Assembly: GCA_025201365.1 (NCBI GenBank)
Contig: JAIXMF010000009.1
Location: 62,001 to 126,000, forward strand
DNA from: Syncephalis plumigaleata
Taxonomy: Eukaryota; Zoopagomycota; Zoopagomycetes; Zoopagales; Piptocephalidaceae
Length of the DNA stretch: 64,000 nucleotides
Direction of reading: 5' to 3'
Of the stretch, positions 15,726 to 63,181 are shown piece after piece. Position 1 is the first letter of the stretch, and each line of letters opens with the position of its first letter. The position numbers were made by a program, and so were the translations under genes. A model generated the notes under the pieces. That model searched no databases. It was not told where the DNA came from and worked only from the letters and a program-made list of their open reading frames with translations.

Positions 15726-15853
15726 ACAACGAGAATTAATATATAACTAAATCAAATAACCAAAAATCAAATAACGAAAATCCTATAACTGAAAACGAGT
15801 AACTATAAAAGATGAGTACTTGGCAAGGGAGGCGATTCAGCCGTTGCTACCAA

Positions 15854-17597: not shown

Positions 17598-17620
17598 ATA
17601 AAACTTGTGTAGGCGGCCGC

Positions 17621-26611: not shown

Positions 26612-26876
26612 GGTGAACAAGTACACAACGGAAGGATGCGAGGTGAACAAGCGGGCGAAGCGAGAAAAAAAAGGAAAAGTGATAGAGAAATTGCGTCAGA
26701 GGCGTCAATTTCTTTTTCCTATCTCATTCACTCACTCACTCACTCACTCACTCGTTCATTTTCATTCTTTGCATTTGTGTGTTGGGTTATGTGTGGATAA
26801 ATGAATGTGCTGATGCACATGTGTATTTTGTACATCGATATCACTGTTACAGATAATGATAAAATACAGTGTTTTT
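26612..26876. other. Promoter-side region of the importin beta gene
   Basis: Contains a TCAC tetranucleotide run (26,726-26,752). Ends at the TA dinucleotide where a Tc1-like deletion element is inserted. Confidence 0.4.
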
Positions 26877-27115
26877 CCATCCAATTTGCGCATTTATCCT
26901 TTAACGTTTGCAATATATTAATAAACAGATTAACACAATTGTTAACACCATTATCATCATAGAAATGTCAATTGATATAGCATGATAATAATAACAATTC
27001 AGTATTAGTAATGGATCATTTATTGATAGCGATAACTATCATCATCAATTCTATAAGGTAGATGATACAAGTGTACTAGTATAGTTTGATATTGCCATGT
27101 CATGTACTTACAAGT

Positions 27116-27335
27116 AGCTATTAATTATCGTGTATGGAATCGGGATATGGCAGCATGTCTGAATTTTATTCAGATTATTCGCAGTGTTCGTGAGGACAAC
27201 CCTATTCCAACACAATTCCAACGACGTGCCGTTTCTCCTCCTGAGCCTAGTACATCCGCCAAGCATTCACTAAATGAAGATCAAGATCAAGATGAGCAAG
27301 ATCAAGAGGAACACAAACATCAAAAAACGAATTAA
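27116..27335 (+). pseudogene. Fanzor 3' coding remnant in the deletion derivative
   Basis: Open reading to the stop at 27,333-27,335 includes VWNRDMAACLNFIQII, the RuvC-III RD motif, and the C-terminal tail SPPEPSTSAKHSLNEDQDQ, nearly the same as the full gene at 54,399-56,740. It lacks everything before the zinc ribbon, so it cannot be a nuclease. It keeps frame through the tail, which suggests recent derivation. Confidence 0.85.
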
Positions 27336-27337
27336 CC

Positions 27338-27355
27338 GGATTGTATCGTCAATCC
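27338..27355 (+). other. Conserved post-stop hairpin, copy B
   Basis: GGATTG-TATCGT-CAATCC: a perfect 6-bp stem and 6-nt loop, starting 2 nt after the Fanzor-remnant stop. Counterparts with different but still paired stems lie at 56,744-56,759 and 41,553-41,570. Confidence 0.75.
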
Positions 27356-27668
27356 TCAAAAAAAATACGGGGTAGCAATACTGTAAGTGTTAACTATTAT
27401 TTATTCGTAAAAACAGAAGGCTAACTGCGCAAATTGGATGGAAAAAGCCTGTACGTGTCATCTTCCATCCTATCTATGGTAATCGTGCTAATAGTTGCTT
27501 CATTATTGTTTATCTATACCTTTATACGTGTGCATGATTATCATAATTAGTAGCTATCATTGAATTCAAAGTGAAAGATATTTCTCGGTTATATACGCAT
27601 TTCCATTGATATAAAAAAGGAAATAATGAAATGTTTATTACTATCGTAATGAAATAGCGGATGACCTT

Positions 27669-34178: not shown

Positions 34179-34968
34179 CTCGAATAATTACTGGTTATCC
34201 GATAATCTACTATATTAATCAATAAAATTATAACTAAATGATCAATTCTGATGTGTCCTACTAGTTTATTGCTACTTGTATGTGCATGACATGGCAATAT
34301 CCAACTATACTAGTACACTTGTATCGTTTACCTTATAGAAAACCCGCCACTAAAACCATCATCAATGGAATGACGGGTGCGCCGTGGAGCTACCAGTCTA
34401 CGTGATTACGCCTGCAGTACTGATAACAGCAGTTTACTAGGCAATTGGTTTGCATCATAATGCGGGCGGATTCTTCCTTGACTTAGCCTTCATCATTCTC
34501 ATCTTATTCTATTCGTATGCTACTCGTATTCCTTTATCTTTATTGAATAAATATAAATAAAATTGCAATACAATAATTGACATTTATTATTTTGTGTACA
34601 AACGGGTGACATTATCAAGCTGAAACAGCAACAGCGACGACGACCTTCTAAGAAGTAGATCTTCTTTGACGTATGCGTAGTCACATGGGTCTACCTTGCG
34701 CTGTACATCTAGCCAATCATCCTCATGATCATGCCGCGTTTTTTCTAGACGGAATTCCGTAGTGTTGGCATAGGATGACTTAAAAGTAAAGCACCACGTC
34801 AGCACCATTCAATCCATGCCATATCATTTTCGTTGTTCTCTTCTCTTCCATTTTGTCTACTCTGCTTTTGTACCTTCTTCGTCACTTATAATTCAGCCAA
34901 GTAAACGAGCGACTTATTATCTATTTGTCTCGTAAACCTACTTATAGTCAGTAATATCAGTTATAACA
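34179..34968. other. Intergenic region
   Basis: Mostly AT-rich. A minus-strand frame at 34,587-34,808 (73 codons, Arg/Asp-rich) has no domain and may be chance. A plus-strand hydrophobic stretch near 34,440-34,558 (FLDLAFIILILFYSYATRI) lacks a start. The right end is the promoter of the small secreted protein. Confidence 0.35.
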
Positions 34969-39561: not shown

Positions 39562-41133
39562 TTATTCCACATAATCATCATTAAAGCTATATATCGTACC
39601 AACCATTGCGTCAATTTCCAAATATTCTCCTGTATTTGGTGCTTCCAATTTACGTATTATCTCTTTTGTACTGATGTCTACAAGCAATCGCCTTCCTCTA
39701 CGATTACGCTCATTTACAATAAAAACATAAAGATCTCCAATAATATGTTTGATGAAAATTGTACCCGGCATTTGTAATGCTTGTCGTCATTGTAGGATGA
39801 GTCTGTCCATACTTTTGTTAGTTTGGAATTAAACCTGTATACATGTATCCAGCCCTTAATAATGGATAGGTATATGTTGGTCAGATATAGTGTAGCAATT
39901 ACGTGGAGTATGGCTTTGACCACTGGATGCTACACTATGAATTATATATGGATTATAATCAGGATGACCGTGTATTTCAATTAGCATATACGAATCGTAT
40001 GAATTATGCGTCTCTAGCCATGTATACTTATCCTCTCAGTAATAAAACCAGCCATTTCGCAATTGTACAACAGGGTCATTGCTCGAGAACTGGTATATGC
40101 CCATTCAATACGACTGTATCATCATCTTTGACTAATCTTGCCGTGTATACTATTGCTGTATCATTGGTTGTTTTATAGAAGCATGTCGCATTCCATGTAC
40201 CATCAATATTTCCTGGACACATGATACTATTCTCTATATCGAATACCATTATATCTCTGAATCCATTATTATTAGTACTAGTATATTGCATCATTGTACA
40301 ATTATCACACTTACAATTGCAACATGGGTATGTTTTTGTGATTGTTCACTAATAATGCCCATTTCCCCTCGATTGTTCACTCATGTGGCTGGAACATCGA
40401 ATGTAGTGAAAACATCACCATGTTTGCGAGATAGAATTTTTACATTATAGTTGGTATTGCTCATGATTGCATAAGGAGATACGGCTATGTAATGGTCACC
40501 CATGGCATAATCATACTGAGTTGCATAGTCAATATCCAGCGGAAAATGTTTGACGATGTGGATAATGTACTGCTATATAATGTTGTTGCTTGATCTAAGA
40601 TTTGAGTGCGGTAGATATTCTTAATATAACTATTGGTGTTTCGTCTGAAGATCTTGTGTGTAATAAATATACGATTATCATTAACATTTTTGCGATAATG
40701 TACTCCATCCTTGTCACGTTCCATATCGATATGCATGGTATTGCATCGTCCATATCGCCAATTATTCTCGGTGCTCACTCGTCGACGATATGTGTTGTAC
40801 CAGTCCACATTCTCTAGTAGATCGGCTCGTTTATCCGATGTACATGGATTGTTGACATCCGTGCGTAACATCATAATACGAATCCATTTCTTTAGCATAA
40901 TAGGCTCCCGATAGGAAATCCCTATGGTATAGTTGTTGCCATAATATTGTATTGTTTCGAATACTGCTTCTTAACGAGTGACAACATGCTGATAAACGCA
41001 ATAATTCGATATGACCAAGTTGACTACGGAAGACACGCTGGTCATGAAATGGAAGAGTATTCAGACAAACTAGTAATCTACAAGACGAGTTGGAATTACT
41101 CGATATTTCAGTAGTAGTAGTAGTAGTAGACAT
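39562..41133 (-). CDS. F-box-like protein, frame broken several times
   Basis: Begins at 41,133 with a Thr/Ser-rich leader and an F-box-like segment (LGHIELLRLSACCHSLR, NTILWQQLYHRDFLSG). Further minus-strand pieces follow in other frames: LENVDWYNTYRRRVSTENN, ENSIMCPGNIDGTWNATC, IIKGWIHVYRFNSKLTKVW and LLVDISTKEIIRKLEAP, ending at 39,562. They look like propeller strands, as in the F-box gene at 29.8 kb. Either this is a decaying copy or shortened homopolymers break it more than most. Tc1/Fanzor relic DNA lies immediately upstream (41.2 kb). Confidence 0.5.
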
Positions 41134-41214
41134 AGTGGAATGGAATAAGAAAGACGATATGGGGTAGAGAAATGCGATGACGTTATTTTAATCAAGAATA
41201 CACAAATAAATCAT

Positions 41215-41580
41215 ACGCAAGTGTGGATAATAATGAAGCATGGTGTTCAAGTCTTTCTAATTGACGAGATATCCTACTGTCACTTGTCATGCCTTCTTAA
41301 GATGAGTACAATCTATAACAATATACTATTCATTATTCTATTAGATGTACACATCAGAATTGTAAAGATGACATGAAGGTAAAGGATTCGAGTATCATGT
41401 ATGGAATCGGGATATGGCAGCATGTCTGAATTTATTCAGATTATTCTCAGTCTTCGTAATGGAAACGGTGTTCCAACACAACTACATCAAAGTGTCATTA
41501 CTTCTAAACGTTCAAGAAATGAAGGACAAGGACAACAAACAGCAACTTAACCGTGATGTATCCTCATCACATCTAAATAC
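41215..41580 (+). pseudogene. Fanzor relic (copy C), internal/3' fragment
   Basis: At 41,237-41,262, GGTGTTCAAGTCTTTC-type DNA matches the full gene near 56,140. An intron-like stretch ending in TTAG precedes ATGTACACATCAGAATTGT (41,341-41,360), equivalent to the second zinc-ribbon Cys pair. Then come the MESGYGSM/NRDMAAC-equivalent DNA (one base short in this copy) and a tail with a stop at 41,548-41,550. Left and right transposon ends are not recognisable, so this is an old fragment, more diverged than the copy at 26.9 kb. It keeps the post-stop hairpin. Confidence 0.8.
41553..41570 (+). other. Conserved post-stop hairpin, copy C
   Basis: GTGATG-TATCCT-CATCAC: a perfect 6-bp stem with a 6-nt loop, 2 nt after the relic's stop codon. 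The stem sequence differs from copies A and B at three positions, with each change matched on the other arm. Confidence 0.75.
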
Positions 41581-41656
41581 GTAAGTTTTATTATTACTAA
41601 TCGTAATATATGATATCGCGATCATTAACATCTCTTTCTTTCTCCAGTGTTATGCA

Positions 41657-44600
41657 TCATATCATACCAAATCCTTCCGAGTTATTAATAGCCGTTAATA
41701 TTCGATCACGTAGTTTTTCTAAGCTGCTATAATCCGGTAACAGCAGTACGTTAAAACACGTGTGTGCAGTAGGTAGTCTATAGTAGTATATTCAATTCGT
41801 TAGCATTAGTAATAAATAGTAGTATTACTATACATATGCATAAGTGTGTCAATAACTTACCGGTCAGAATCACCACCATTACGTGCTATGGTAAATGCTA
41901 GTTTACCCAGACCACCAAGTGGAATGCGATCAGTGCCAGTGGCAAAGAATAGTAGTTGCTTTTTACGATCCTCATCAAGAGCATGAGCAACTGACCAGAA
42001 ATGCCTAATAATAATAATAAAGGTAGTTAGTTAGCTACATTGATCGAATAGTGTAACAATGATCCATGTTCATCAACATGATTACCTAATCACAGGAGAT
42101 GTCGCTTCATAGCCACCGTCATACTTGGTCGCCTGTTCCAATGCATGGAAATCGAACTCTTGACTACCGCATACTATCATTTCTAATTCTTCCGGTCTAA
42201 ATATCTATAATAGTATAGCAGTTTATAGGTTATTGGAGTAGGCTCGTCGTTAACCATTCCTCCTTACCTGAATTGCACTTTTACCGCAATTTGATCGAAG
42301 CCTTCTTTAAACGCGCCAAATGGACCCTTAACCGATTCGTTTAGCAGAAATGACACGTAACGATCGACAAAGTCACGACAATTAGCCTGTGTTACAGGTA
42401 CTGAGGCACCCTCCGGTATTAGATTGTGCGTATATCGTCGACCAAAACATTCATATTCCACTTGGTATGTCTGTTCCATGAAGCCCAGCTGTTCATCGTC
42501 CATGTCGAGTAGTGCGCGTAGACCACGTTCCATCGACTATAGTTTATCATTGATGTTAGCGCGTTATTAACATGACATGGATATTAGTCAATATTACCGG
42601 GTCTAACGTTTTAAGATCAATTAGTTGCACCGGGTAACGAAGTAGTTTCTTGTATAGCGCGGTAGGTAAATGAACATCAAGCATAACCGCATTATAAATG
42701 GCAAGTCCAATGAGTCGTCCGATCAACTGATACTCATCGAGTGTGGCACGATTAACATCTGGATTACGCGCGAACCAGCATCGACCTGATTCCTCATGCC
42801 ATGTAAACATGCCTATAACGTGTCATGAATATAGATTAGCGTATTATATAAGTGAGAAGAGAAAGCGCACTAATGACTGTATAATTACCATATTTCTCAT
42901 CAAACATCTCACGTACGAGAAGTTGAAAGAATTCCTTTTGTACGCCTCCTTCATCTACCGCTTCCTCGCCTACAAAATGAACGCGTAATTGTTTGCGTAA
43001 TTCTGCTTCAGGTTTGGATTCCACTATTGGCACTTATTTATTACTATTGATGTTGTCTGACTATTGCATCTAATGATATCCTACCTGATTGAGTGTATCG
43101 CGTATGATATTCTCTCGATGAATCTCCAATACTAAATATGGGCTATTAACACCGACAAATAGGGTTCTAAAGAAGGCATCCTAATGGTGGTATGATTGCA
43201 TTCAGTATCGTCATCTTTCATTACTGATTATCAATGTAGGATACATACCTGCAATTCATGACGCATCCGTATGATATTCTCCACTTGAAGTACTTCACCC
43301 TTAACGGTAGCATTCAACACAAATGGATAATGACAATAAGAGAATCTAATTGTTATTGTTACTTAGTAGTCTATACATCTTCATCACATTGTATAAAATG
43401 CTTACCCGCTACGTGCTCGGAAATGCGGATAGTCCTCGCGTACATCGATCCGTTCGCTAATAGCTTGACTATAAAGTCATTGAACGGTAGTAGCTCGTGT
43501 TCCTGATTATATCGATCTGCCATTATGTTAAGGGGATACACGACTTGTACATGTAATGGTGGGACTAGTAAACACACACACAAAGGATACGAAATATTTC
43601 CATACATACCACGGTATGACAGACTGCCGGTTCCTGATTGGGCGATGGTGAATTAGGACTGCATAGGATATCTTCAATTCGCTGTTGTAACGCTTAACCA
43701 CGCGATACAAGTGCTGAGTAGTGGCGCGTGATTCCGCTTGTATATTATCGCAGTTGACCGGTGTGATACTATGACAAAGAATGTCACGCTGACGAGGTTC
43801 CAATCGTAGACACAAGTCGACAAACGAGGATATTAGAAAGTGCTGACCAAGCGTAGTTGTCAAATCAGGATTCTAACAAATAACAAACGATTATACCTGT
43901 TATGCATTGATTCAACTCGATCATGATCCATATTACTTACCATGCTAACCACTGCTAGACAATAATGACTCGATTGTCGAGTCGTCCTTGACAAAAGTTA
44001 AATCGACTAAGTGCACGTCCTAATGCTAGGGCAATCAAACGACGTAATGGACTAGCGGTCCGAGTAGATTCATCAGGTACAGCGGATGTTGTTTTCAATT
44101 CTTCCTGAACTGATGATGAATCCAACTACTTATGGTGGTGGTTGTAGTTGCCGTTACCGCTTTATTCTGCGTATCCTCTTTTACCACTGCTGATTCCTCA
44201 CTACATAATACACGGAATGCACGCTCAATTAGCGGATAGTCAAGATTGATTGTTGTATCTGATCGAGCATTTGCTGATTTATCCGACAATGAGAATATAT
44301 GAGTTATTGGTAGATACTCGAGAAGAGTCGTTCAACATCTGCGTATAATCGATGCTCGTCAATAGGCGATAATGGTTGTGTTGACGTTGCTTGATTCAGA
44401 ATAAGTTCAAGATCTAATAGTTCATGAGTATCTACTAGTCTTAATTAGTAATTTGATTTATACACTAAGGGGAAATGTATTTACCATGTCGCGCGTCTTT
44501 AAGCTGACCCTCCTGTTCTGGATCGATACGAGCCATCTTCATACAAGGTTGTGCCGCGTGACGTCTTCGTGATGTACCGGATACACTTGTTCTTGGTGTG

Positions 44601-46317
44601 AAATAACGACGATCTGCAAGTAACAAATCTTCATCGGTGACCGAGTGTGATCGACGTCGTCCACTTGATGTTACAGAACGTGCTGTAAACACAGAGGATG
44701 ATGCACCTATGATATAGCAAACTAGTAATTTAATATGCGCACTTTATGACTATAATTCATTCACACTCTACCTTGTTGTTCAGCCGTTTCCCAATACTGA
44801 CGATGATTATTAGGGTCACGAGGTGGATGTTGATGATAATGATTACGATGTACATTATATGAATGAGGTAGAGTCGACTCAACTATTCCTGGATTACTAC
44901 CACTATCACTTGACAAGTAATTGGTGGAACTTGTAGTAGAACTACTTGCAGATGATTCCGGATCATGACGAGTTAGATTACTAGCAATTACTCCAGTCGA
45001 TGTTGATGGTGTAGCAAGGGATGCTGTAGATACTAGAGCAGGATTAACAGTATTTGATGATCGTACATGATGCCTTCCTGATTCTAATCCATTTGTACTA
45101 CTACGTAGACGATGCTGTTCGGAATGATTTGAATGATGATGTAGATGATGATTATTATTATGAAGGTGATGTAGATGATGATGATGTCGATGATGAAGAT
45201 GATGATGCTGACCATGTCGATGAGCTGCCTGATTAGATGACACTATTGGTGATGATGCTGTTAATGCAGATGCTGATGCTGATGAATGCGATTGCTCATT
45301 AGGTATAGCATGCGATCGATGATAGATTAGAGTACGATTAGAAGGAGTAGTAGCCGTATCATTCCTATTGATTGTAGCATCGAAACCCTCTGATCCATTA
45401 TATAATGGTGTAGGTGCTGTAGTATTGTTACTATTATGCGCAGTATGCGTATTTATCCTAGATGCTACTGCAGCAGATGGTTGTACGTTACTTGAATGGT
45501 TAAACGTGGCGGGCATCGATGATGTAGGTGTTGTCGATGGTACGTGTAGATGATAATGATGATGGTAATGATAATGATGTGTTTGCATCGCAGAAGGCGA
45601 TGAAGGTACAGGTTGAGATGAGGCAGGTCGATTGCTTATAGAAAGATGCATTGTTGCACTAGATGGCGTATTACTATAAGTTATAGGGCGTGGATATGGA
45701 GAATAAGCAATGGGACCTGATAATGAAGAATGGTGTTGATGTTGATGATGATGATGTGGTTGCGATATACGTGTATTGATCAATGAACTAATACGATGTT
45801 ATAATATGAAGTAATCATTATTCTATTAGAACTTGACAATCATAACTTGTATTCTTTTGCGTATGTGTGTGACTTACCCTGATCTATCCATTGTTGTATG
45901 ATGAGGTATTAACCAAGCGGATGTAGAAGTATTGGATGTACGACGCATTTCTACGATACTAGCACTAGCTGGTGCAGGTGCTACTGAAACATCGTGAGGT
46001 AGTCGAATATGTAGTGAACGACCACGCCAACGCGAGCGTGCACCACCACCACCACTAGTAGTACTAGTACTACTGCTATCGACTGAATTCATACGTGTAC
46101 TCTGACGATAAAAACCTTGGTTTGATACTGTAACTGGAGCTGTAGCAGCACTATGAGTAGAATTGATGTTAGTAGTCACTACACCAGCTGTTGTGTTAGT
46201 TGTTGCTGTTGCTGTTGCTGTAGCCGAGGTAGCTGTATATTGACTGTGATTGTTGCTGTTATTGTTATGAGCAGAGGCAGTACAAGGTGACAAGGTTGGT
46301 GGGCGGGATTCCGTCAT
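41657..46317 (-). CDS. HECT-type E3 ubiquitin ligase (HUL4/UBE3A-like) with a long low-complexity N-terminus
   Basis: About 14 exons. Exon 1 (46,317-45,878) and exon 2 (45,787-44,772) are Ser/Thr/Asn/His-rich with long His runs. A helical middle region follows ([53 protein letters not shown]). The HECT domain starts near 43,550: [57 protein letters not shown]-type exon 42,204-42,086, and [16 protein letters not shown] with the catalytic Cys, ending GFGMI at 41,657. HECT ligases take ubiquitin from an E2 onto this Cys and pass it to substrates. At least five frame slips sit at homopolymers (43,473, 43,609, 43,689, 43,974, 44,124); one added base each gives continuous family sequence, so I read the gene as intact. 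Confidence 0.88.
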
Positions 46318-47178
46318 GAAGGAATGATAGAATAGATGTTAAATAGCAAGTCTTGTTATATAGAAGGGAATTCTAAATAGATAGCATACGCGATAGACGT
46401 ATAAAAAGGACGAGTTCTGCAAGGGGACAATTGGCATAAAGGAGCTAGTGCAGGTAAAGGTGAGCTGGTAACCAAAGAAACCGAAATAAATGGCGGTGTT
46501 TTCCTGTAGTATAGGGTTTTCAATAAACGTGGAGGTAAGGACTGTTACAGGCTTGCATAAGAGTAAGAAAGTGGATAAACGTATTAAAGCAAGTTACGAA
46601 TAGATAGGATGCCTTAGCAGATATCATATGAATGTTATATGAGTATGATATTGTAAAACATATAGTATAGTAGTAAAAGTATGAGGAGAGATTGGAAAAA
46701 GACTGTATCTTCGCTATTGCCACATTAACCTGACAACCTGATCTGGGTGTGGTTCATTCATTCCATTCACCTTCTCTTACCACCACTCACGCACCACACT
46801 CACCACTCTTATTCTCCTCGTTAAAGTTTGGCGGTTCATGTTGCCTGTACATCTGTCATTTAGGCTCGGCCACTGTTCAAATACCATCCTGTGCAACTAG
46901 CTTATTAATCCTTTGTTCAAGAGCATTTCTTTCCTTCATTTAACCTTACAACAACCGGCACTCTGCTAGTCAGATTGGTTGGCAGTGACACTGATTAGAG
47001 TGAGTATAATTAGATGAGAATACGTAAAATTACTATGAATCATCGTTCTTCATAGACGATATACTATCATATGCCTGATGACTTGCACTAATCTTTCTTC
47101 TTTTTCTCTAATATAATCGAATATATATGCATATATAGCTTATATAGTTACACTTGTTTACTGCGGATTAATTTCATT
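46318..47178. other. Divergent intergenic region between the HECT ligase and PAN3
   Basis: 860 bp without supported coding sequence; short open frames at 46,520-46,723 (minus) and 46,749-46,943 (plus) are low-complexity. It must hold both promoters. A CT-rich tract at 46,770-46,825 precedes the PAN3 side. Confidence 0.5.
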
Positions 47179-50100
47179 ATGCTATCGCCCAACGCTAAAG
47201 AATGGACAGGTATTTTGACACTAGGGCATATGTTCATTTAATGTAATAAATGATGTGAATACTATCATAGGAGCAGCGTCGATGGTTGCCACTCTATCGG
47301 CATCATCATCATCTGCTGATGCAGAGATGGAGGAAGTAGAGAAAGTAGGTGCAACTGGCATTGACGATGCATCAGATATAATTACCACGACGACAGAAGC
47401 AGCATTGATCGAAGATACAAAAGATACGGTACCAAAAACACCACCACTTACTGCTACATCCACAGGAAATGTAGCTGATACGAATGATAAATCTGGCACT
47501 TCTACTAGTGCTGCTGCTGCTGCTGCAAGTAGTATTGGTACACCAAAAAGTACGCGTATATGTAAGAACGTCATTATCTATGGCTATTGCAAGTTTGAAG
47601 GCAAAGGTTGTCAATTCAATCATAATGTAAGATTACGAGTATTATATGGAGACATTATCTAATACTTGATATATTTACTATTGATGCATGTTGTAGACAA
47701 ATCCACCTAAAGCAGCAGAGCCAGAGAAATTAGAAAGGTAAGTTATAGTATAATATAGACTAGTATTTCAACTAATTGCATGTAACCTTAGTGGTACTCC
47801 ATCCCGACTTAATGCTACATCACCTGTATTCACACCGCAGAATCGAGCTGCTTCACCCACTCAGGGCGGTCAGACAGCACCGGCGGAAATGATGAGTAGT
47901 CTGGATCTAGGAAATGCTGCTCTCAACAATCTAGGATATTCTACTTATGAAACACCAAATGCACAGTCACATTCAGTCTATGGACAAAGGTAGCGTAGTA
48001 ATATATGGTTAGCTACTACTACTATTATTGACTAGACAGTGATTATAGTGTATTAGGTGGTATGTATCAACCACCAGCTAGACATGCTAATATTCTTCCA
48101 TTTGGAAATACGAATGGATTTACGCAACAGTTAACGCGTGGTATGAGTAGTCTTGGATTTACAGAGAATGAAGTAAGTAGTAGTAGGGAATGATAGAGTA
48201 TAGAGTACTAGTTGTGCATAGTTACTTAATGATTACTCGATAGAATACCGTAGAGTATGTGACACCACGTCGTACACTATCAGCGGGAGAAACACTCTAT
48301 GCGAATGAACTAGACAATGGCTATGTGTTTCAACCTGTAAGTAATGCTATATGACATTTGTCGACATGCATTATTAATGTAATCCGATACAATCGTGTAA
48401 TTAGTTGCAACATCATCTGTACACGGCACCTCTTCATAATTTACCGAGTTTAGCACCGAATCAACGAACGGTACACGGTTTCTTTGTGGCAGATTCATTG
48501 AGACGTGAACTACTCGAGAAACAGGAAGAGTTAACTCATAATCTTACTGGTAATTTAATGGAAACAAAATGATGACATGCTACTAATGATTGCCCTATGT
48601 CATTACTAGTAAGGGATCCGGAATTGCCACCAGAAGTTCATGTTTACCATACGCTTTATCCCTTGGATGATCGACACATTCGATTGAGTCAGGTGGTAGG
48701 CCATACTACACACGTCTACAAAGCGGTGTCGCGTATGGATGGTCGTTCCTATTTATTGCGACGTGTTGAAGGTATATATATATATATAAATATAATAAGC
48801 TACTTTAGATGCATATTGCATAGACATGACCGCTAAGTTGATGCTACTATTTAATCTAGGATTTCGCATGACACATCAAGCGAATATGGGTGTGGCAGAG
48901 ACATGGCGTCGTTTACGACATGCCAATCTAGTTAGTGTACACGAAGTATTTACTACAAAAGCATTCGGCGATCATTGTAAGTGGACACGACCTTCATTGA
49001 TTTATGCATTTCTAATTCTACTTGTATATCATGCTGATTACATTTGACATAGCATTAATCATCGTGTACGACTATTTCCCGCGAGCACCCACCTTATTCG
49101 AGAAATACTTTGTTGCACCGAAACGTGCCACCACTCCTGAAGATGTGCATATACCAGAGTCGCTTATGTGGAGTTTCATCATTCAGATTCTATCGATTAT
49201 GAAGACCATTCATACAGCTGGCATGGCACTACGCGTACTCGATCTTACCAATGTCTTATTAACCAATCAAAATCGGTTAGTCTATTGAATCTGCATTGAC
49301 AAATGGAATATTAATTAGTATATAGATTACGTGTTGGATGTTGTGGTATGTACGATATACTCGGTGTGGAATCCAATAAAATGGTCGCTCAAGCACAGGT
49401 AGGTTGATAGAGGCATTTCCTTTATTTTAATCGAATCTATCATCATTATCATCATGAACATGCATGCTTATGTATTTACTTTTCATATATCATCAATGTG
49501 AAATGATCCAGCAAGAGGATATGTTGCAATTTGGCCAGCTATTATTGTCGCTAGCGTGTAATTCCCTCAATGCAGTTCGTTTCATACCAAAATCACTCGA
49601 ATTTCTATCTAGTAGATACTCGCCCGATATGAAGAATGTCATCATCTATTTGCTCACTAAACCGTACCCGATGAAAAGTCTCGATGATGTTGTTACCATA
49701 TGCGGTCCACGTATGCTAGGGGAAATCAACTCGATGCATTTGTAAGTGAGCAATCTACATGCATGTGTGTATGTGTTACTAAAATACTAGCTAGATATAA
49801 TGATCAATTGGAGAATGAGTTAACACGCGAATTGGAGAATGGACGACTAGTACGATTGCTATGTAAATTTGGATTTATCAATGAGCGACCCGAGTAAGTA
49901 CTTGTTAATTAGAGGAATACAGCGACATCATACTTACATTCCTCTCCCGATTAGATTCGACATGGATCCACGATGGTCTGAAACGGGCGATCGCTACTTA
50001 CTTAAACTGTTCCGCGACTATGTCTTCCATCAAGTCGACGAGAATGGACGTCCTGTTGTGGATCTAGCCCATGTTATTAGTTGTTTAAACAAGGTAAGTA

Positions 50101-50300
50101 GCATTGACCATTCACTACTAGAATACCAAATACTAAAACAAATCGTATCAGTTGGATGCAGGTGTCGATGAAAAAGTAATGCTTGTGTCGCGCGATGAAC
50201 AATCGTGCTTAATTGTTACCTATCGTGAACTTAGAAACTGTGTTGCACAAACATTTGACGAATTGTCGCAGCATCAGTCGCAAGCAGCGTCACGCCATTA
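47179..50300 (+). CDS. PAN3: PAN3, regulatory subunit of the PAN2-PAN3 poly(A) deadenylase
   Basis: Starts at 47,179 with a short first exon (47,179-47,209) spliced to 47,271. N-terminal acidic/Ala-rich region, then a CCCH finger ([17 protein letters not shown]...H) that binds poly(A). A PAM2-like motif ([10 protein letters not shown]) follows, for poly(A)-binding protein. The pseudokinase has [19 protein letters not shown], an [18 protein letters not shown] block and [15 protein letters not shown] in place of HRD. Then comes a coiled coil ([20 protein letters not shown]) and the knob domain ([20 protein letters not shown]...[15 protein letters not shown]). All parts are in the canonical order. 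PAN3 recruits the nuclease PAN2 to mRNA tails in the cytoplasm. Many short introns; the C-terminus ends at TAA 50,298-50,300. Confidence 0.93.
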
Positions 50301-50725
50301 AACGGCCAGCGATAGTGTCATTTTTCTATTTTGCACGTTTGTATGACTCCTTTACACTATTTGTCACAAGTATTCATTAATAGGCGTAATACGAAGTATA
50401 TTAGTTTCTTTAATGAATGAATTATTAAACAACCCAATAAAGATATTATTAACAAGTCATCTGAAATGCTTCCGCTCTCCTTCTATCAATTACTACATGT
50501 ATAATAAGAGCGATGTAATATTAATAAACAAGCTGTATGTCAGGTTAAATACTTGACAAAGAAATGGGTACAGAGTAATAGTAATACATTATTAGTCGTT
50601 GATATGATTGGCAAACCACATGGACACACCTACGTCAACACTTCTTTCTATTCCCTTGCTTACTTTCCTTCTTTCACTTACTGTAGTGCAACCACTTGCT
50701 TTATTTACCAATTACTATTAATACA
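50301..50725. other. Intergenic region between PAN3 and NMT
   Basis: PAN3 3' UTR with an AATAAAG signal near 50,438-50,445, and the NMT promoter with a CTTTCTTTC-rich tract (50,640-50,690). No gene seen. Confidence 0.5.
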
Positions 50726-52612
50726 ATGACTGATCCTACCTTGAACTCGAGTCAAGAGGAGAAGTCGTCGGTAGAACGAGACGCGTCTACTTCCACCGAG
50801 ACAACAGAGCAAGCACCGACTACAGCTGATAACACCGCTTCTTCGTCGTCATCTGCTGCAACACCTGATCCAGAGGCACAAAAGAAGCTTGCTGATTTGT
50901 TGTCACATCTTAATTTACAAGCATTGCCAGGACAAGAAATTCAAAAAGAGCACAAATTCTGGAAGACACAACCAGTGCCTCAACATGGTTAGTTTAGTAG
51001 TTAACAATAGAATGAATAATAGCTACTTACTTACTATAACTTTACCAACAATAGGAGAGCCTATTAAATCTGAAGGTCCTATTGAACCGAGTAAGAAGCA
51101 GGAGGAACTTCGTCAGGAACCATATCCATTGCCCAAGGAGTTTAAATGGTGTCTAGTTGATATTAATGAAGAGGCAGAGGTAAGTGATTAGCAGCATTAT
51201 AATCGATTAGAGTGATTAACCTTCATAATCCAATACGTATATCTCATTAAATACTAGATGAGTGAACTATACAAGTTACTATCAGATAATTACGTCGAGG
51301 ATGATGATGCCATGTTTCGATTCGACTACACACCTGCCTTTATTGATTGGTAACTTATCTAGTGAATAAGCTATTATTACAAAGGATTAATTGCTGTTAT
51401 TATCTTACTTGTGTAGGGCATTGAAACCACCAGGTTGGCTACCAGACTGGCATCTAGGTGTTCGTGTTGCTAGTAATAATAAGTTAGTGGCATTTATTAG
51501 TGGTATTCCAATTGATTTACGTATACGTAAAGAGTAAGTAGCGATACTCATTTCTCAATGTATTTAACTATCTTATTCACTAATACAAACATATACATAT
51601 ATATCTAGTACACAACGTATTGTGGAGATTAACTTTTTATGTGTACATAAAAACTAAGAAATAAACGATTGGCACCGATGCTTATTAAAGAGGTTACACG
51701 TCGCGTTCATCTTAAAGGAATCTTCCGTGCCGTATATACCGCGGGTGTTGTCCTGCCTCGTCCCACTGCTACTTGTCGGTACGTATATTCGATAATAGTA
51801 TATACATTATTTATCTTACGTGTATGTGTCTAGTTATTATCATCGTTCGTTAAATCCCAAGAAGCTAGTGGATATTGGATTCTCTCATTTGCCTCGTGAT
51901 ATGTCGATGAAACGTATGCAGCTTCGTTTGTCACTTCCCAAGGAGACCAGCATACGTGGACTGCGTTTAATGCGCGAGGAAGATGCCACTAAAGTGCAAG
52001 CGTTGCTAAATCGCTACTTGAAACGTATGGAATTCTCGGTGGTATTTAAGAATGCCGATGAAGTACGACACTGGTTGCTGCCACGAGATGGTGTCGTGTC
52101 AACCTATGTGGTCGAGGTAAGCATGACAATTAAGCAGTAGAGATGCTAGGATGATGTCCTTTACTAATAGAAGCTGTATTGCTTAGTCGACCGATGGCAC
52201 TATTACTGATGTTGCCTCATACTACTCGATTCCATCCACTGTCATTGGCAATGCTCATTACAAAACAATGGAGGCAGCCTATCAGTTCTACTATGCCACA
52301 GATGTAGTATTCCAACAAGATGGTGAACAGCAATTAGGTGATCGATTACGCACACTATTCAAGGATATTCTTATTAAGGCTAAAGAGGTAGATTATCTAA
52401 TAAATGTTCATCTAATCGAGTGACTACATGCTAATACTAATTGCTTTGTATAGGAACGATTTGACGTGTTCAACTGTTTGAACCTACTCGACAACGAGGA
52501 GATTATTGAAGATCTCAAATTTGGTCCAGGTGATGGTAACCTGAACTATTATTTGTACAACTGGCGATGTCACGATGTACCCTCCGAGAAGGTTGGCCTC
52601 ATTATGCTCTAA
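50726..52612 (+). CDS. NMT1: Glycylpeptide N-tetradecanoyltransferase (N-myristoyltransferase)
   Basis: Exons 50,726-50,987, 51,055-51,179, 51,258-51,349, 51,417-51,533, about 51,609-51,778 and three more to TAA at 52,610-52,612. Family landmarks: [91 protein letters not shown] and the C-terminal [14 protein letters not shown]. The enzyme moves myristate from myristoyl-CoA to N-terminal Gly of many proteins; it is essential in fungi. The frame is lost once, at the five-A run 51,649-51,653. One more A yields the conserved [12 protein letters not shown], so the gene is probably intact. The N-terminal 85 residues are Ser/Thr-rich, as usual for fungal NMTs. A TA-flanked transposon begins 120 bp after the stop. 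Confidence 0.94.
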
Positions 52613-52734
52613 TGAGCTGCATTCTATAGTTTGTCATTAAAACAATCGAGGCTATTATGATAGTATTTGTGTGTGTGTCTCTCTCTCTACATATATTGAA
52701 TGAAATGACAAAAAGTTACGATTCTTTCTATTTA

Positions 52735-52985
52735 CAGTGTTTTCCAACCAATTTGCGCATTTATCCTTTAACGTTTGCATATATTAATAAACAGATTAAC
52801 ACAATTGTTAACACCATTATCATTATAGAAATGCCAATTGACACACCACGATAATAATAACAATTCAGTATTAGTAATGGATCATTTATTGATAGCGATA
52901 ACTATCATCATCAATTCTATAAGGTAGACGATACAAGTGTACTAGAATAGTTGGATATTGCCATGTCACATACTTACAAGTAGCA
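52735..52985 (+). repeat. Conserved left end of the Fanzor transposon
   Basis: About 250 bp shared with 26,877-27,116 at about 94% by eye. Besides the terminal repeat it keeps TTAACA-CAAT-TGTTAA (52,796-52,811) and a perfect stem TGATAG-CGATAA-CTATCA (52,890-52,907) in both copies. Confidence 0.85.
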
Positions 52986-54286
52986 ATAAACTAGTATGGT
53001 AGATAAATTATGATGATAATGCTTACGATTGATTGCATAGAGAGCAACGAGTAAACAAATAGAATACACGATAAACAATGTAATAAACAAACAGTAACTA
53101 GTAGAATGACTGACTTGTCACGAACTAGCAAGGAATGAGCAAGGAAGGGTGCATGAACACGTATGCCAGTTTATTCGAAGAAGCAGTGTATGCTTGTATG
53201 TGGTGAATAGAGTATGTAGATGGCAGTAAACAAATGAAAATACAAATAACAGCATGACGTAAGGGTGGCATACAAACAGATGACGGAAAAGAGTGGCAAA
53301 AGTAAAAGGTACATATTACAACGAGACAGTAAACGCTTAAGCATTGATAAATAAGCAGGACAGTGATAGAAAACAAAGGACTAGAACGAACAATAAACAA
53401 TACTTATTGGTATAGTAATAATAACGACAAGTGAGCATGTAGATAGGTTAGAGGAAGAGGAAAACAAAGAGATAAATAAACGACATAGAGATAGTATGAC
53501 AGAATAGCTGCTATTGGGAATGTGTATGTAAAGTGAAAGAGGAGTAAGTGGAATGTGAATGACACGAAGAAGACGCGTATTACTGAGAAAGTGGAATAAA
53601 AGAAAGAGGAATAACTAGCATATAGTTAAAGGAAGTAACACGTATTGTTTACTGACAAGTGGATGTAGTTGACACAAATAAGTGTGTTATTGAGTGACAA
53701 GGGAAATGAGGTTAGTACGAAGAAGACAGCATTGATAAAGAGAGAGAGAGAAAGAATGTTTTTATTGACTAATAAAGAAAATTAACAATTTATACATCAG
53801 TCGATAATGAGGAATGGAAATGTATTGTCATTGTTAACGAAGTAAAGGAGGAGGAAATAATGTAAGTAACGAAGTAAATGGAAAGGGGAAAGAAAAGCAA
53901 CAATGAAATGGATACTTGGAAGTGGATTGGTAGACCATTAATCAAGTGTTAGCAAATAGTTAAGGAGAAGTTGCTAATGGAAGCATTAGTAGAAGCAAAT
54001 GAATATATTAACATCCATTACAAGATTCTGTTCATTTATTAATAACGAATCTTTCATTAATAAAGTGTTAACAAGATTACTAGTACTTATTAATGCTTAA
54101 TGATTGCTAAATTATAAGCGGCGTTATACCATTGCTACAATGACACTAGATGATACGAGTCTTACTGTGTTGCGCTGTAAATGATACTACTTACCATAAT
54201 GGATTCACCCTTCCTGTATGTGTCTGCACGAGCGTTTCACCCCTACGTCATCAGGTCCGCGCAGTTAGTACTACCAACGTGCCACG
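52986..54286. other. Non-coding interior of the Fanzor transposon
   Basis: About 1.3 kb, purine-rich on the plus strand, with repeated words such as ACGAAGTAA and AGTAAATGGAAA. The minus-strand frame 53,125-53,400 is low-complexity. No transposase motif is visible. TGTTG...TTAACA at 54,169-54,363 could be an old solo LTR overlapping the Fanzor promoter. Confidence 0.5.
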
Positions 54287-54294
54287 TATATAAA
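54287..54294 (+). promoter_or_regulatory. Candidate TATA box of the Fanzor gene
   Basis: TATATAAA, 105 nt before the chosen ATG (54,399). It is followed by TATAATAAAATAA, which also follows the TATA-like box of the gypsy element near 60,358. No second TATA match is closer to the ATG. Confidence 0.45.
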
Positions 54295-54398
54295 GAAGCG
54301 TCTATACTATAATAAAATAAAAGATTAATTAACCCTTCATATTGTAACTGTGGTCGTTTTAACATACTACGATTATATTGATATCCATCCTTTTTTAC

Positions 54399-56740
54399 AT
54401 GGCGTCACAGCCAGGCACTAATGGCTCGTCTACTTCTGCCAACAGTGGACGAGTTCTGGCTGTGAAGTCCTCGCTTTCCGGCATTGGTTGGAAGAAGCAT
54501 CACGATGTTTTGCGCGATTTTGTAAATATCGTACATACTACGACCTTCCACGCCTACTCCTTCGCAAAATATATTTTTCTCCGTGAATATAAGGATGATC
54601 CGAACTTTAAGTTCGAAGAGTATATTTGTGAAGACTTTTTCAAGCAAGTATGGCTTTCATTAGTCACGCGTACGCGAAAAGGCAGGCCCAGCCCGAAAAC
54701 AATTCAACTTCGCGAGTTCATCAAGAAGCATTTGGGTAATTACCTTGAATTTGCTCGCTATCAACCGCCGGAGTTAGCCTATGCCGATCAATCAGCAATG
54801 TATGAGTCAAGGAAGATGTACGTTGCTTACACCAACAATGTCAGGTTGCGCTTTGGCGACCATCTTCGGCGTGCTGTTAACAAGCACTTCGATGTCAAGG
54901 AGAAGCTAAAAGATATGAAGAGGAGGTTACCCAAGGACGTAAAAGCTGATGAGCTTCGCAACGAAATTAAAGCAATCACTGATCCAGCAAAAAAGTTCAA
55001 GCTAGCAATGGCACAACGAGACGGGCCTAAAGCGTTGGCTAAAGAGGATCCCACCTTTACTGAAGCATTTAACACATTTAAAGGCGTTTTGGATGCTTAC
55101 ACTGAGGGCCACGACTTTAGTGAAAACGGTCTTTATTACGACTGTAAAGCAAATCCAGTGAAGCACTTCAAAGCGTTCTTTAAGCTTGCGCACCTGTTTG
55201 ACGACCTCGACCTGAAGCCTTTCAGCTGCTTCCCCCTGCGCCAATCTTTCTCACCGTGCTACGTCCATATCGACACCGTTATCCTTTGCGAGAACATATT
55301 AGGACGCAGTTATGCGGATAAGAAGACTGATCAGCAGAAGGAATTGGAGAAGGAATGGTCCGATAAGCAGAGGAGGGAAGCCCTTAAGAAGAAAAAGAAG
55401 AAACATTGGGGAGAAGTCGTAAAGCTCAATCGAAGGGTATTCAGAGATCAAAAGGATGGCAAGCTCGAGTTTTTCTATTCAATTGAGACCGATGGCGTTG
55501 GTGTCACGGTCATCAAGAAGGGCCCCAAGAGACGGGGAGCGAGGTCAGCAAAGGATCCCTTCCCGTATATCAGTAAATTGAGCTGATGATCACAAGGCAA
55601 TCAACGGCAAATGCGTGGCGGTGGACCCGGGAAGAAGAAACTTACTGTTTTGTGTACACGAAAACTCGACGGTGGAAAATAAGCGCAAATATCGGTACAC
55701 GAAACTACATCAAGACAAGACGCGGAGGACGAAGAAATACCGCAAGATTCGCGAGGACTGCAAGAAGGGGAACCAGGCGGTGCTGGATGCCGAACGCGCT
55801 CTCTCAGGAACCAAAGGCCGCACTGTATTTCTGGAGGAATACAAGGAATATCTGAGATGCAGATCACAGCACTCGGAGGTCCTTACTAGCTTTTACAGAA
55901 ATACTCTTACCCTCCCCACCACCGATCCCACCGCCCATTCTACCCAACATCCTCTCTTCAGGAAGTTGAAATTGTCAGCCTACATCAGCAAACAACAAAG
56001 TGATCAAAAGCTGATCAAAGGGTTGACTGAGAAGTTCGGTGGGGATGCAGCATTTGTGATGGGGAACTGGTCGGCTCCTCATGCCAAATACCACGAGCCC
56101 ATACGTGGTATTGGCTTTAGAAGGCTTTTAAAACGACATGGGTTTAAAGTCTTTCTAATTGATGAGCACAAGACCAGCAAGTGCTGCCCAGCCTGCAACA
56201 ATCCCACCCTCGAGAAATTCAAGAAGGTCCCAAATCCTCGGTCGAAGCAACATGGAGACAGCCATAGAATTATCTGCCATGGTCTTTTAAGGTAAGTACA
56301 ATTTATTACACTTTGCAATTTATCATGATATATTAATTAATTATTTTATTAGATGCACACATCAAACTTGTAATAAAGCCATGGAAGATATAAAGGCCAA
56401 GAAGGAGCAAGAGGATATGATGGACGTAGATGACGAGGAGGAGCAAGAGGATCTGATGGACGTGGATGACGAGGAGGATCAAGAGGGCACGAAGGACAAG
56501 AAGCGCAAGAAGTATAAGGAGGATCCGGAATTTAACAGATACGATCATCGTCTGTGGAATCGGGATATGGCAGCATGTCTGAATTTTATTCAGATTATTC
56601 ACAGTCATCGTGCTGATGGTCGTGTTCCAACACAATTCCAACGAAGTGCCGTTTCTCCTCCTCAGCCTAGTACATCCGCAAAGCATTCACTAAATGAAGA
56701 TCAAGATCAAGAGGGATCCAAACATCAAAAAACAAATTAA
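54399..56740 (+). CDS. Fanzor (TnpB-like RNA-guided RuvC nuclease)
   Basis: Start at ATG 54,399; one intron 56,292-56,352 (GTAAGT...TTAG). The N-terminal half (54,399 to about 55,580) is helical and basic (KDMKRRLPKDVKADE, KKKKKKHWGEVV). Then RuvC-I CVAVDPGRRNLLF, KFGGDAAFVMGNWSAPH, zinc ribbon KTSKCCPAC...HRIICHG and, after the intron, CTHQTC, and finally RuvC-III RLWNRDMAACLNF. This matches the published Fanzor signature D...[TS][TS]xx-C4 finger...RD, with 183 residues from D to TS. Family members are guided by an omegaRNA and cut DNA. Odd: a duplicated acidic block (DVDDEE twice) lies between finger and RD. The frame is lost near 55,575-55,595; one extra base in AAA (55,575) and one in AA (55,594) would join both halves (ISKIELMITKAINGKCVAVD). 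Confidence 0.9.
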
Positions 56741-56743
56741 CCA

Positions 56744-56759
56744 GGTTGTATCGTCAACC
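56744..56759 (+). other. Conserved post-stop hairpin, copy A
   Basis: GGTTG-TATCGT-CAACC: a perfect 5-bp stem, 3 nt after the Fanzor stop. Relative to copy B, one A on the left arm and its partner T on the right arm are both absent, a paired change. Candidate part of an omegaRNA or a 3'-end signal. Confidence 0.75.
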
Positions 56760-56766
56760 GCCGCAC

Positions 56767-56782
56767 TGTCGCCCAAGCGACA
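56767..56782 (+). other. Second hairpin between the Fanzor stop and the right end
   Basis: TGTCGC-CCAA-GCGACA, a perfect 6-bp GC-rich stem with a 4-nt loop, only 7 nt after the first hairpin. The segment containing it is missing in copies B and C. Confidence 0.6.
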
Positions 56783-56856
56783 ATGGCACCCAAAATACGG
56801 AGTAGAAATACTTGTAAGTGTTAATTATTATTTATTCGTAAAGACAGAAGGCTAAC

Positions 56857-56882
56857 TGCGCAAATTGGATGGAAATAGCCTG
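56857..56882 (-). repeat. Right terminal inverted repeat of the Fanzor transposon
   Basis: Reverse complement of this stretch starts CAGGCTATTTCCATCC and pairs with the left end at 52,735. Followed by the TA target duplicate. Confidence 0.88.
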
Positions 56883-57613
56883 TAAATGGAATTTGTCTCA
56901 GCTATATAAATTACAGATGTCACCTGTTCATCTGACCTCATTTTATCATGCCACATATTGCTCCTTGTATTGCTACTCCTACTACTGCTAGTACTACGCT
57001 TCCTTATCTTCTTTCTCTTCTTTCTCTTCTTTCTCTTCTTCCTTCTTCTAGCTATTTATTAGGGTGCTTATACGTTATAGTTGCAGTTACTCATCTGTTC
57101 CATACTACAATATTGACATTATCTCTATCTCTAGCTGTATTGTCGTTTTCATTTCTATTTTCCTGTGTGATTTCAGCGTGTATATATACGCACACATATA
57201 CATATACATATACATATATGCATATAAACATATATGCACTATATACTATAGGCATTTCCTTACCAATTAGTAGTAATAGTTGTAGCATTAGTTTATTAGG
57301 GAGCAGTGATTGCAAGTGCATATATGCTGTGATTTCTCGGTAATCACTTACCGCTTCAACTGTATTGTACTACTGCGATATCATTAAACTTGACGAAATT
57401 ACAATTATCCACTGTGGCTTATCCGAATAATTCATGGCAAGTAGCATAGGTATTCTTTTGGTTGCATACCTTTAACTAATCCTATTCAACTATTCAGGGA
57501 AATACAGCTTCTAATGAGAATGGAGGTGGGTGGACGAGCATATAGTGCCACACACTCGGCCAGAATAATGGTCGTGTTACAGGCCAGGTGATGCATCGTC
57601 GTACGTTGTCTAG
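56883..57613. other. Intergenic region with simple repeats
   Basis: Contains CTTCTTTCT tandem repeats (57,003-57,050) and (AT)/(ACAT) repeats at 57,180-57,240. The plus-strand frame 56,948-57,343 is built from these and is not supported. The true first exon of the next gene may lie here, for instance with an ATG near 57,434, but I cannot place it. Confidence 0.45.
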
Positions 57614-60225: not shown

Positions 60226-63177
60226 TGTGGTGCGGACACATCGTCTCCATAAGACATTAATTAAAAAAGTATATAATTCACGATGTCGCTTGCAATACTT
60301 TTGCGGTTGCATTGCACGTTTGTATGTTGTGACTTACCTAACCAGATATTCATACATATATAAGCTTCTACGAAGCACGTAAATTATAATAAAATAAGTT
60401 CCGTTTTGAAATAGTTTGTGTGTGTGTCCTATCATTGTCCCTAGTCAGAGTTGGCTAGTGTTCTTTATACGCAGAGAGAGAAAGCTGTACGAGTGTACAG
60501 TTGGGAAAGAGATACACGACGGATTATTACGAGCGATTCATTAAGCCTAGTTACATTGCCGCCCAACGAGCTAGGAGAAGCAACATGGCTACCCACGTCA
60601 GACCCGTCAATAACCCCCCGCCACAACTGGAGCCCAATGCGGGGACGGGTATTCCTATGGCGAGGGACTGTAATCCTCCTCCTAGATTCACTGGAGAGAA
60701 TGTTAAGGAGTTTATGCACCATTACGAACGCTACGCCGACTGGCTAGGCTGGAACAATGAGGCGAAGATAGAGTGTATCGTGAGTTATCTCACTCCAGAT
60801 GCGACGGAGCTTGTGCTCATCCACCCCGGCACGTCCACCGGCGACTGGCCGCAAGTCAAGGAAATGCTACTCACCAATTATCGTCGGCGGCTAACTACTA
60901 GGTCGCCACGTGAGGTGTTAGCAGACTTACTGCGGAAAGGATTCGACTATGACGATCCGGAGTCATATTTGTCGAGGTACGCCACAGTCACATCGTGTGT
61001 TCCGAACATGTCCGATAGCGAGAAAGCCGAGAGAGTATTCGACATCCTAGATGTGGATTTCAAGGAACGTTGCATGAATCACCTAGGCAGGAACTTTACC
61101 TTTGAGGAACTGCGGGAAGTGATCTTAGACTTGAAGTACAAGAGTAACCTTATCGGGAAGTCTTTGAAGAGAAGCGAGGAGTCCAAGGAAGCCCAGTCAC
61201 GTAAGCAAGAACACAAGGAGCGTGACGACGAGCAAGATCTGTACGACAAGGTGGCTAAGATGGTATTACAAGTGGTCGAGAAGCGAGAAAACACCAAAAA
61301 GGTTCAGCGTCCCATGCGGTGTATTTACTGTGATGCTACTGACCATTGGAAGCCGGAATGCACGACGTTGACTGAGGATCTACGCAACGGGATAGTTAGG
61401 ATGGTGGAAGGAAAGGTAGCATATCCCGACGGCGGTCACATACCTCTCAATAGCGGACGAGGCGGCATGCGCAGTTTCATTACCGAAGGAGTCAAGGTTC
61501 GGCATATCGCGCTCCAGGAACGGGAGAGACCGGTTGGATATGACGTATGTTGGCAGGAGATGACCAACCCGGAAGCGGTAGCACCCGAAATCCTGGTCAA
61601 CGATCCATTTCAAGTGAACCACAAGCGTGCGAGGGTAGGTGCTGATCGGGAACAATCGGATGCTATGGTAGTGGATACTCGCGAAGCCGGTACAATGACG
61701 GAAAAGGCGAAGCGTGCACCACCTACTTTTCAGTATAGAGCACCCGTAGAGGAAGGAAGAGTGCCGGAAGAGGTCATCAATAGAGTGTTGCAACAGTCGC
61801 AGGTGACTATGAGTTTCGATGAGTTCATGGTCGTGTCACCAACAGCTAGAAAGGTCGTTAATGAAATGGTGTCAAGGAAGAGGGTCCCGATTGAGCCGAG
61901 TACCAACATGGTAGCCACTTACCAAATAAGGGAAGGGATCGAAGATCCATACGACAACGTGGTCGAGAGGAAGGAAGTCACGCGAGTTGCCAGACCTACT
62001 GCGGCAGTAATGGGTACGGTTGCGGGTATCCCCGTGAATATTGTCGTAGATCCTGGATCTGAGATCACGATCATGTCTGGACGTTTCTACGACAGGATTG
62101 GTCGACTACCTTTGGATACCTCCAAGGTGTACAGCATGGGTAACGCTTCTGGTACCAGTTCGACAGCTAGAGGGTTGTGTCCCAATGTGCCCATAGAAGT
62201 TGGCAGCGTGCGAGTTCCTGCTCATATCGTGGTGATCGATGGCACTCCGTTCGACGCGTTGGTTGGTATGCCCTGGTTGGAACAAGCTCAGTGGGAGATC
62301 AGACGTGAGGGCAACGGTTCTTGGTACTACTTACGTGATAGTGAGCACTCCGTGAGGTTCCCTGCGGCACCTCTGGCTCCAATGAGCATCAGGCACGAGA
62401 ATTACGTCCGACTACACTCGAACAGGATTACGTTGGACTCCGGTGTGGATGATGAGCTGGACAAGGACGAGGAATTGTTAGGCGTGGTCACGGTGAGAAG
62501 CTTTTCCGACAACGAGGAGACTTACATGACGTGCGCGGCGAAGTACAAGCCTGTCGGTAAGAAGAAGCTACCAATAGCGGTGCCGGTACCATCGAACGAG
62601 CGTCCTCAGGAGTTGGCAAGTGTTGTGCGACCTTTGGCGAAGAGGCTTACGGAGGAACGCCTTGCGGCAATGGTGATCGGTGACGACGTCCTGCGAAAGG
62701 AAGAAGTAGCGTTTTTCAAGCAGCAATTACTTACCGTGGATCAAGCCTTTGCGTTCAATGACGAGGAGATGGGCCTGTTACGTCCTGAGGTGGAGCCGCC
62801 TATCAGGATACCTACCGTGAAGCATGAGCCGTGGTATCAGCGATCCATACCTATCCCGAGGGCGATCTTCGATCAAGTGGTGGAGCTGCTGCGTGTCAAG
62901 ATGGAGAGTGGAGTCATCGAGTCAAGCAGTGGAGCCTACAGTAACCGGTGGTTCGTGATAGCCAAGAAGGACAAGAAGAAGTTGCACTTCATACAAGACT
63001 TGCAGCAAGTTAACTCAGTAACCGTCAAGAATGCTAATACGCCACCGTTGAGTGAAGAACTGATAGAAGATGTGTCCGGTCGCGCCATTATATCTACGTT
63101 CGATCTGTATTCTGGGTATGACCAAATCCCCATTGATGTGCGTGACAGAGATATCTTTGCGCTCAATACACCTACAG
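60226..63177 (+). mobile_element. Ty3/gypsy LTR retrotransposon, partial
   Basis: A likely 5' LTR begins near 60,226 (TGTGGTGCGG) and includes a TATATAAG box near 60,358; its right end near 60,434 cannot be proved because no second LTR is in the window. Coding DNA for gag, protease and the first part of reverse transcriptase follows. RNase H and integrase are not seen before 64,000. A short inverted-repeat element sits at 63,182, where recognisable pol sequence ends. Age unknown. Treated as a fossil. Confidence 0.8.
60501..63177 (+). CDS. Gag-protease-reverse transcriptase polyprotein of the gypsy element (partial)
   Basis: Gag region (ECIVSYLTPDATELVL, PREVLADLLRKGFDYDDPE), a zinc knuckle (CIYCDATDHWKPEC), an aspartic protease with NIVVDPGSEITIMSG and FDALVGMPWL, then the RT start (VKMESGVIESSSGAYSNRW, the KLHFIQDLQQVN block, STFDLYSGYDQIPI). 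This is the usual Ty3/gypsy order in one frame. The best start may be the Met at about 60,585. Confidence 0.8.
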
Positions 63178-63181
63178 TGGG

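Follow-up and report, generated by a model that had tools for sequence, protein, structure and literature searches.

A hairpin between Fanzor1 stop codons and transposon ends in Syncephalis plumigaleata is most probably stem-loop 1 of an omegaRNA

The hairpin that accompanies the Fanzor1 genes of Syncephalis plumigaleata is very probably stem-loop 1 (SL1) of the omegaRNA of this Fanzor1 family, as judged from comparison of its copies and of the encoded proteins. Fanzors are eukaryotic enzymes related to CRISPR nucleases. We analysed a window of 64,000 nucleotides, i.e. part of contig C373 in a genome of 32.6 Mb, together with related copies throughout the genome. An earlier note had described the hairpin in three copies (A, B and C) and proposed it as the core of an omegaRNA. 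The omegaRNA reading is retained on the basis of position, of the CC and UAUCG loop and of protein homology; the hairpin itself corresponds to SL1 and not to the whole core. New in this analysis are the assignment of the hairpin to SL1, the evidence on its strand, the nature of copies B and C and a census of gene-less ('ghost') loci; a literature search gave no paper combining Syncephalis and Fanzor among the matches listed.

The three hairpins lie where the earlier note had placed them, with the stems, loops and change in paired length that it had described (Table 1). Each comes directly or just downstream of a stop codon, at 56738-56740 in copy A, 27333-27335 in copy B and 41548-41550 in copy C. 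This position after the stop applies to these three copies but not to the GTGATRG subfamily, in which the TGA stop is located inside the 5' arm of the hairpin (431-433 in L091). Likewise, a Fanzor gene upstream had been assumed in all three, which is correct for copy A, where the gene is frameshifted, whereas copy B is a MITE and copy C a decayed relic. Copy A is an element of the TIR/TA type, beginning with TACAGTG and ending with CCTGTA. Behind its SL1 stands a second hairpin, which is replaced by an unrelated one in other copies and missing from some. Of the Fanzor element, copy B retains about 255 bp at the left end and 330-340 bp at the right end, and its internal join recurs in L008, L010, L011 and others. 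Copy C belongs to a family other than that of A, in which copies often break pairs and show many one-sided changes, as expected of dead copies; these decayed copies were excluded from the structure tests. This family (L061-L090) is large, with 643 first-look candidates of which 40 were scored; by eye, its Fanzor remnant seems to be without the zinc-finger stretch, and some of its copies, among them C, seem to terminate with a left-type end in inverted orientation.

Table 1. Coordinates of the Fanzor-related features in the window
Feature	Position	Strand	Description
Copy A, full-length Fanzor1 element	52733..56884	+	4152 bp; ends TACAGTGTTTTCC... / ...AAATAGCCTGTA; TA at both ends
Left subterminal motif GGTAGACGATACAA	52923..52936	+	Inverted near-copy of TTGTATCGTCAACC; 13/14 bases match the SL1 sequence
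Fanzor1 gene of copy A	54402..56740	+	ATG to TAA; frame broken at ~55583-55615
Predicted omegaRNA SL1 of copy A	56741..56759	+	CC, A, stem GGTTG/CAACC, loop TATCGT
Optional second hairpin of copy A	56760..56787	+	CTGTCG/CGACAA type
Putative stem 2, 5' arm TACGGA	56796..56801	+	Would pair with terminal CCTGTA; folded so in L103, L094 and B but not in A; no covariation
Element terminus CCTGTA of copy A	56879..56884	+	Putative last bases of the scaffold and 3' arm of stem 2
Predicted 15-nt guide of copy A	56885..56899	+	Flanking DNA; inferred from SpuFz1
Copy B, MITE ('ghost' locus)	26865..27453	+	589 bp; left part joined to right part of Fanzor element
Predicted SL1 of copy B	27336..27355	+	CC, stem GGATTG/CAATCC, loop TATCGT
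Copy C, portion of decayed repeat family	39880..41640	+	Left bound 39880 set by the extent of the comparison
SL1-like hairpin of copy C	41551..41570	+	CC, stem GTGATG/CATCAC, loop TATCCT

The window also holds an isolated piece from the left subterminal part of the element (34259-34340, minus strand) and an importin beta-1-like gene (23248-24813, minus strand). Domain searches found a reverse transcriptase/RNase H ORF adjoining an integrase-like ORF (13259-18382, minus strand), presumably a DIRS-type retrotransposon, and an ORF with protease and partial reverse transcriptase (60501-63239, plus strand), which we take to be an LTR-type retroelement. Searches of the window gave no tRNA, and nothing at the gathering thresholds of Rfam.

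Homology to solved Fanzor1 proteins, together with the RuvC D/E/D residues, places the protein of copy A in Fanzor1. Its D (VAVDPGRR) and E (IDEHKTS) both fall within the alignments to solved Fanzors, and the D of the last exon (WNRDMAACLN), read from the sequence, is one that we take to complete the RuvC triad. Two Fanzor pieces of the window match PpFz1 with E-values of 3e-64 and 1e-44, and P0001, a related protein of this species, matches PpFz1 at 9e-105 and SpuFz1 at 3e-33; by sequence similarity, PpFz1 is the closest solved protein to the copy A Fanzor. Many relatives of copy A have an open frame across 614-724 aa. The last intron of the copy A gene is probably placed after about 56295. 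The public protein P0001 stops where this intron seems to begin and is without the last exon carrying the third RuvC aspartate, unlike P0002, which includes it. The terminal inverted repeats with a TA target site are those of a Tc/mariner-type element. Fanzor1 has been described in Tc/mariner elements (Bao and Jurka 2013, PMC3627910), and copy A resembles the Fanzor-only elements presented there, with TIRs and TA target sites; a point of difference is that no transposase was recognised among the listed ORFs of copy A. The passages listed from that paper do not describe the hairpin.

With up to 3 mismatches allowed, the right-end pattern matched 480 genomic sites, and with up to 2 the left-end pattern matched 408, the controls giving 0 in both cases; 73 distinct right-end regions were collected. 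A protein search of the genome returned 40 Fanzor loci, whole or broken. A weak fragment on C26, adjoined by exact SL1 and right-end matches, is not among these. At 37 of the 40 loci, the hairpin lies between the Fanzor stop and the right transposon end, i.e. in the position of an omegaRNA; the remaining three (L093, L114 and L115) have no element right end at the expected place. Among the loci, L006 and L007 share a flank and are probably duplicate contigs, and further duplicates are likely. Two elements of about 2 kb (C28:3206-5193 and C112:994943-996985) carry about 950 bp of the Fanzor left end with no Fanzor match listed nearby, and about 20 further left ends likewise have none listed.

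Three homologous copies are weak evidence for selection on structure; larger sets provide the support. Of the 37 hairpins, 35 fitted a strict pattern, comprising 17 distinct sequences and 14 distinct stems (e.g. GGTTG/CAACC, GATTG/CAATC, GTGATAG/CTATC(T)AC, GTGATGG/CTATCAC, GTGGCG/C(T)GCCAC and GGGATAG/CTATCTT). When arms were swapped among the 17 distinct sequences, the mean folding energy rose from -6.3 kcal/mol (native) to -4.1 kcal/mol, the native value being reached in 2 of 100,000 permutations. The same test was weak within one stem/loop type (native value reached in 1160 of 20,000 permutations for the first type and 605 of 20,000 for the second); much of the signal therefore lies between types. 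Stem type seems to follow protein subfamily, as far as the sequences tell.

Two alignment-free counts of single pairs were made genome-wide. The first (76 loci) comprised 49 G-C, 12 G.U, 15 A-U and no A.C combinations (Fisher p 6e-9) and the second (42 loci) 21 U-A, 8 U.G, 12 C-G and one C.A (Fisher p 1.3e-4), both p-values being too small on account of shared descent and duplicate contigs among the counted loci. Taken together, 20 intermediates are wobble pairs on the Fanzor strand and one is a wobble pair on the other strand, which points to RNA, read from the Fanzor strand, and not to DNA. The selection on RNA structure that had been proposed from three copies is thus supported by compensatory pairs as well as by wobble on the Fanzor strand.

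The two commonest SL1 forms have 95 and 50 exact matches in the genome. Twenty of these 145 loci are at the Fanzor loci read, one is the fragment on C26 and 124 lie elsewhere, many of them in short transposons that are without the gene, though not necessarily all as whole MITEs. From a sample of 30 loci chosen by an exact right end only (L031-L060), 21 were judged by eye to have the omegaRNA region, against 9 with none or a trace; the stem, again by eye, was intact in 18 of these 21 and damaged in L041, L045 and L051. Across 13 MITEs of the class of copy B, most of them found through similarity to A and hence not a random sample, SL1 had no variable column among its 20 (one being gapped), the ORF remnant had 52 of 225 and the TIR 3 of 36; at the rate of the ORF remnant, the chance of no variable SL1 column is 0.005. 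These 13 were drawn from 19 loci, the others being copies or failing the length/motif filter. In the L031-L060 sample, SL1 was not special in group A, where stem types are mixed: counting its own, 97 of 273 windows reached a value that low or below it. In group C (7 copies) SL1 was free of differences, a value shared by 19 of 216 windows, its own among them. In Spizellomyces punctatus, ghost Spu-1 loci of about 550 nt have been reported, with inverted repeats and no Fz ORF, and the RNAs of four of them were active with Fz in trans (Saito 2023, PMC10432273). Copy B and the MITEs of 549-606 bp are like these published loci, as they are flanked by inverted repeats and have kept the omegaRNA region while losing the Fz ORF.

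A signal at the DNA level, i.e. a cruciform or a transposase-binding subterminal repeat that mobilises the element, would agree with the inverted near-copy of the hairpin near the left end of copy A, a motif also carried by 14 of 15 MITEs measuring 549-606 bp, and with a conservation of SL1 at least equal to that of the right TIR in the 13 MITEs. However, MITEs of 229-243 bp were without SL1 and left motif in all five sequenced pairs, and yet one of their junctions has 44 genomic matches; MITEs without SL1 multiply too, so SL1 is not needed for transposition. Conversely, SL1 is present and the left motif absent in all nine elements of 1026-1163 bp, and the left motif keeps its sequence unchanged beside another SL1 type (L060). 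Together with G.U intermediates of the Fanzor strand and almost no A.C, these data leave a DNA signal improbable, and the cruciform that the earlier note had offered as an alternative is disfavoured by the wobble pattern and by the multiplication of MITEs that have no hairpin.

Selection on RNA would also fit a 3' signal in the Fanzor mRNA, acting in termination, processing or stability and not as a guide RNA, and the place of the hairpin directly after the stop codon speaks for it. This possibility is just as slight, since the hairpin is conserved in MITEs that have no gene, one subfamily has its stop codon inside the stem, and the loop and the CC match SL1 residues of SpuFz1. The SpuFz1 omegaRNA is located between the Fz stop and the right inverted repeat; in the published structure U5-C6-C7 come first, C6-C7 are upstream of SL1, C6 pairs with G20, and U16-G17-U18-C19-G20 of SL1 are among the protein contacts (PMC10432273). 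The S. plumigaleata hairpins, compared with the SpuFz1 residues named in the text of that paper, likewise have CC followed by SL1 with U-R-U-C-G: all 37 hairpins have CC before the stem and 35 have TATCG in the loop, the exceptions being TATCA (L101) and TATAG (L109). The location, the CC before SL1 and the U-x-U-C-G are common to both systems. SL1 is given as seven pairs in three solved Fanzors, and in S. plumigaleata the GTGATRG and GGGATAG types have seven pairs and the other types 5-6; the GTGATRG copies read CC, a 7-nt arm, one nucleotide and UAUCG.

At Fanzor loci, 15 of 16 stems curated by eye are fully paired over 5-7 pairs and one (L096) has a single non-pair. The irregular L104 was omitted from this table, and curation by eye leans towards pairing, whereas the arm-swap and pattern tests are independent of it. 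Pairs were listed on these curated stems because a MAFFT alignment put two stem types out of register; RNAalifold on a MAFFT alignment of 20 regions did not recover SL1. Minimum-energy folds of the whole region (RNAfold) contained SL1 in five of eight copies (L103, L094, L099, L112 and B) and part of it in L105, but not in A or L091. That the arms agree by chance or shared descent, with no selection, is the least probable explanation: the copies are paralogous, the original set held three of them and the arm swap is weak within one stem type, but the arm swap between types, the pair counts and the curated stems oppose it.

If the hairpin is SL1, the omegaRNA would be transcribed from the Fanzor strand, starting near the stop codon with CC and SL1, and could contain an extra hairpin after it. 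Past SL1, the sequences follow a common order, first an optional hairpin, which is entirely different from copy to copy, and then UAC(R)GG. The scaffold would be closed by a stem 2 formed with the terminal CCTGTA, and is expected to extend as far as the end of the element (56884 in copy A). The TACRGG/CCTGTA pairing appears in the RNAfold folds of L103, L094 and B and not in those of A, L091, L099, L105 and L112; no covariation was detected for it, and the GTGG subfamily offers, by eye, at most 4 pairs. SL1 is well supported by comparison, and stem 2 is a prediction. The guide would be the DNA just beyond the right end, in copy A from 56885, its predicted length being borrowed from SpuFz1. SL1 would bind the RuvC/TNB side of Fanzor, as in the solved SpuFz1, and RNA-guided cleavage may be presumed. 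The region from CC to the element end measures about 107-153 nt in 30 regions, against scaffolds of 75 nt reported for SpuFz1 (PMC10432273) and a 75-nt omegaRNA for PpFz1 of Parasitella parasitica (Cell 2024, PMC11423790). S. plumigaleata also differs from SpuFz1 by its optional extra hairpins, its stems of 5-7 pairs and its UAUCG in place of U-G-U-C-G (PMC10432273).

Left flanks favour A at position -1 (65 of 106), compared with T at the mirrored right position +1 in 20 of 79 (Fisher 1.4e-6). Among full-length elements read by hand, 20 unique flanks had A in 14, C in 4 and T in 2, two of them (L201 and L204) with altered ends placed by eye. An orientation-blind flank logo was dropped as it matched both strands. 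The published TAMs are ATN for PpFz1 (PMC11423790) and CATA for SpuFz1 (PMC10432273), one sentence of the literature giving those of GtFz1 and SpuFz1 the other way round. The A-TA bias is compatible with both TAMs: the 5'-ATN-3' of PpFz1 fits the A-TA on the left side of the elements, and the conserved CA reported upstream of the left IR in SpuFz1 has its counterpart here in a preferred A. Selection of a TAM by Fanzor was rejected as the cause, the bias being no different between MITEs bearing the omegaRNA (34 of 49) and unique MITEs without it (21 of 36; p 0.36). It is best regarded as an insertion bias and not as evidence of Fanzor action, though the preferred A-TA may equal the TAM.

MITEs such as copy B, with SL1 and right end but no gene, would be candidate guide donors in trans. 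An attractive extension of the SL1 finding is that the more than 100 gene-less SL1 carriers would together form a permanent library of omegaRNAs acting in trans, each taking its guide from its own flank and kept by selection for Fanzor binding; a common breakpoint inside the elements, found with different SL1 types, suggests an exchange of omegaRNA cassettes between Fanzor subfamilies. We put this forward as a speculation that is rather unlikely as it stands. This single genome, with about 40 Fanzor loci, several SL1 types, carriers that have no gene and comparable MITEs lacking the RNA, constitutes a natural mutagenesis set for SL1, which could reveal the features of SL1 that Fanzor needs, any co-evolution of SL1 and protein, and any guiding of Fanzor in trans by RNAs of ghost loci.
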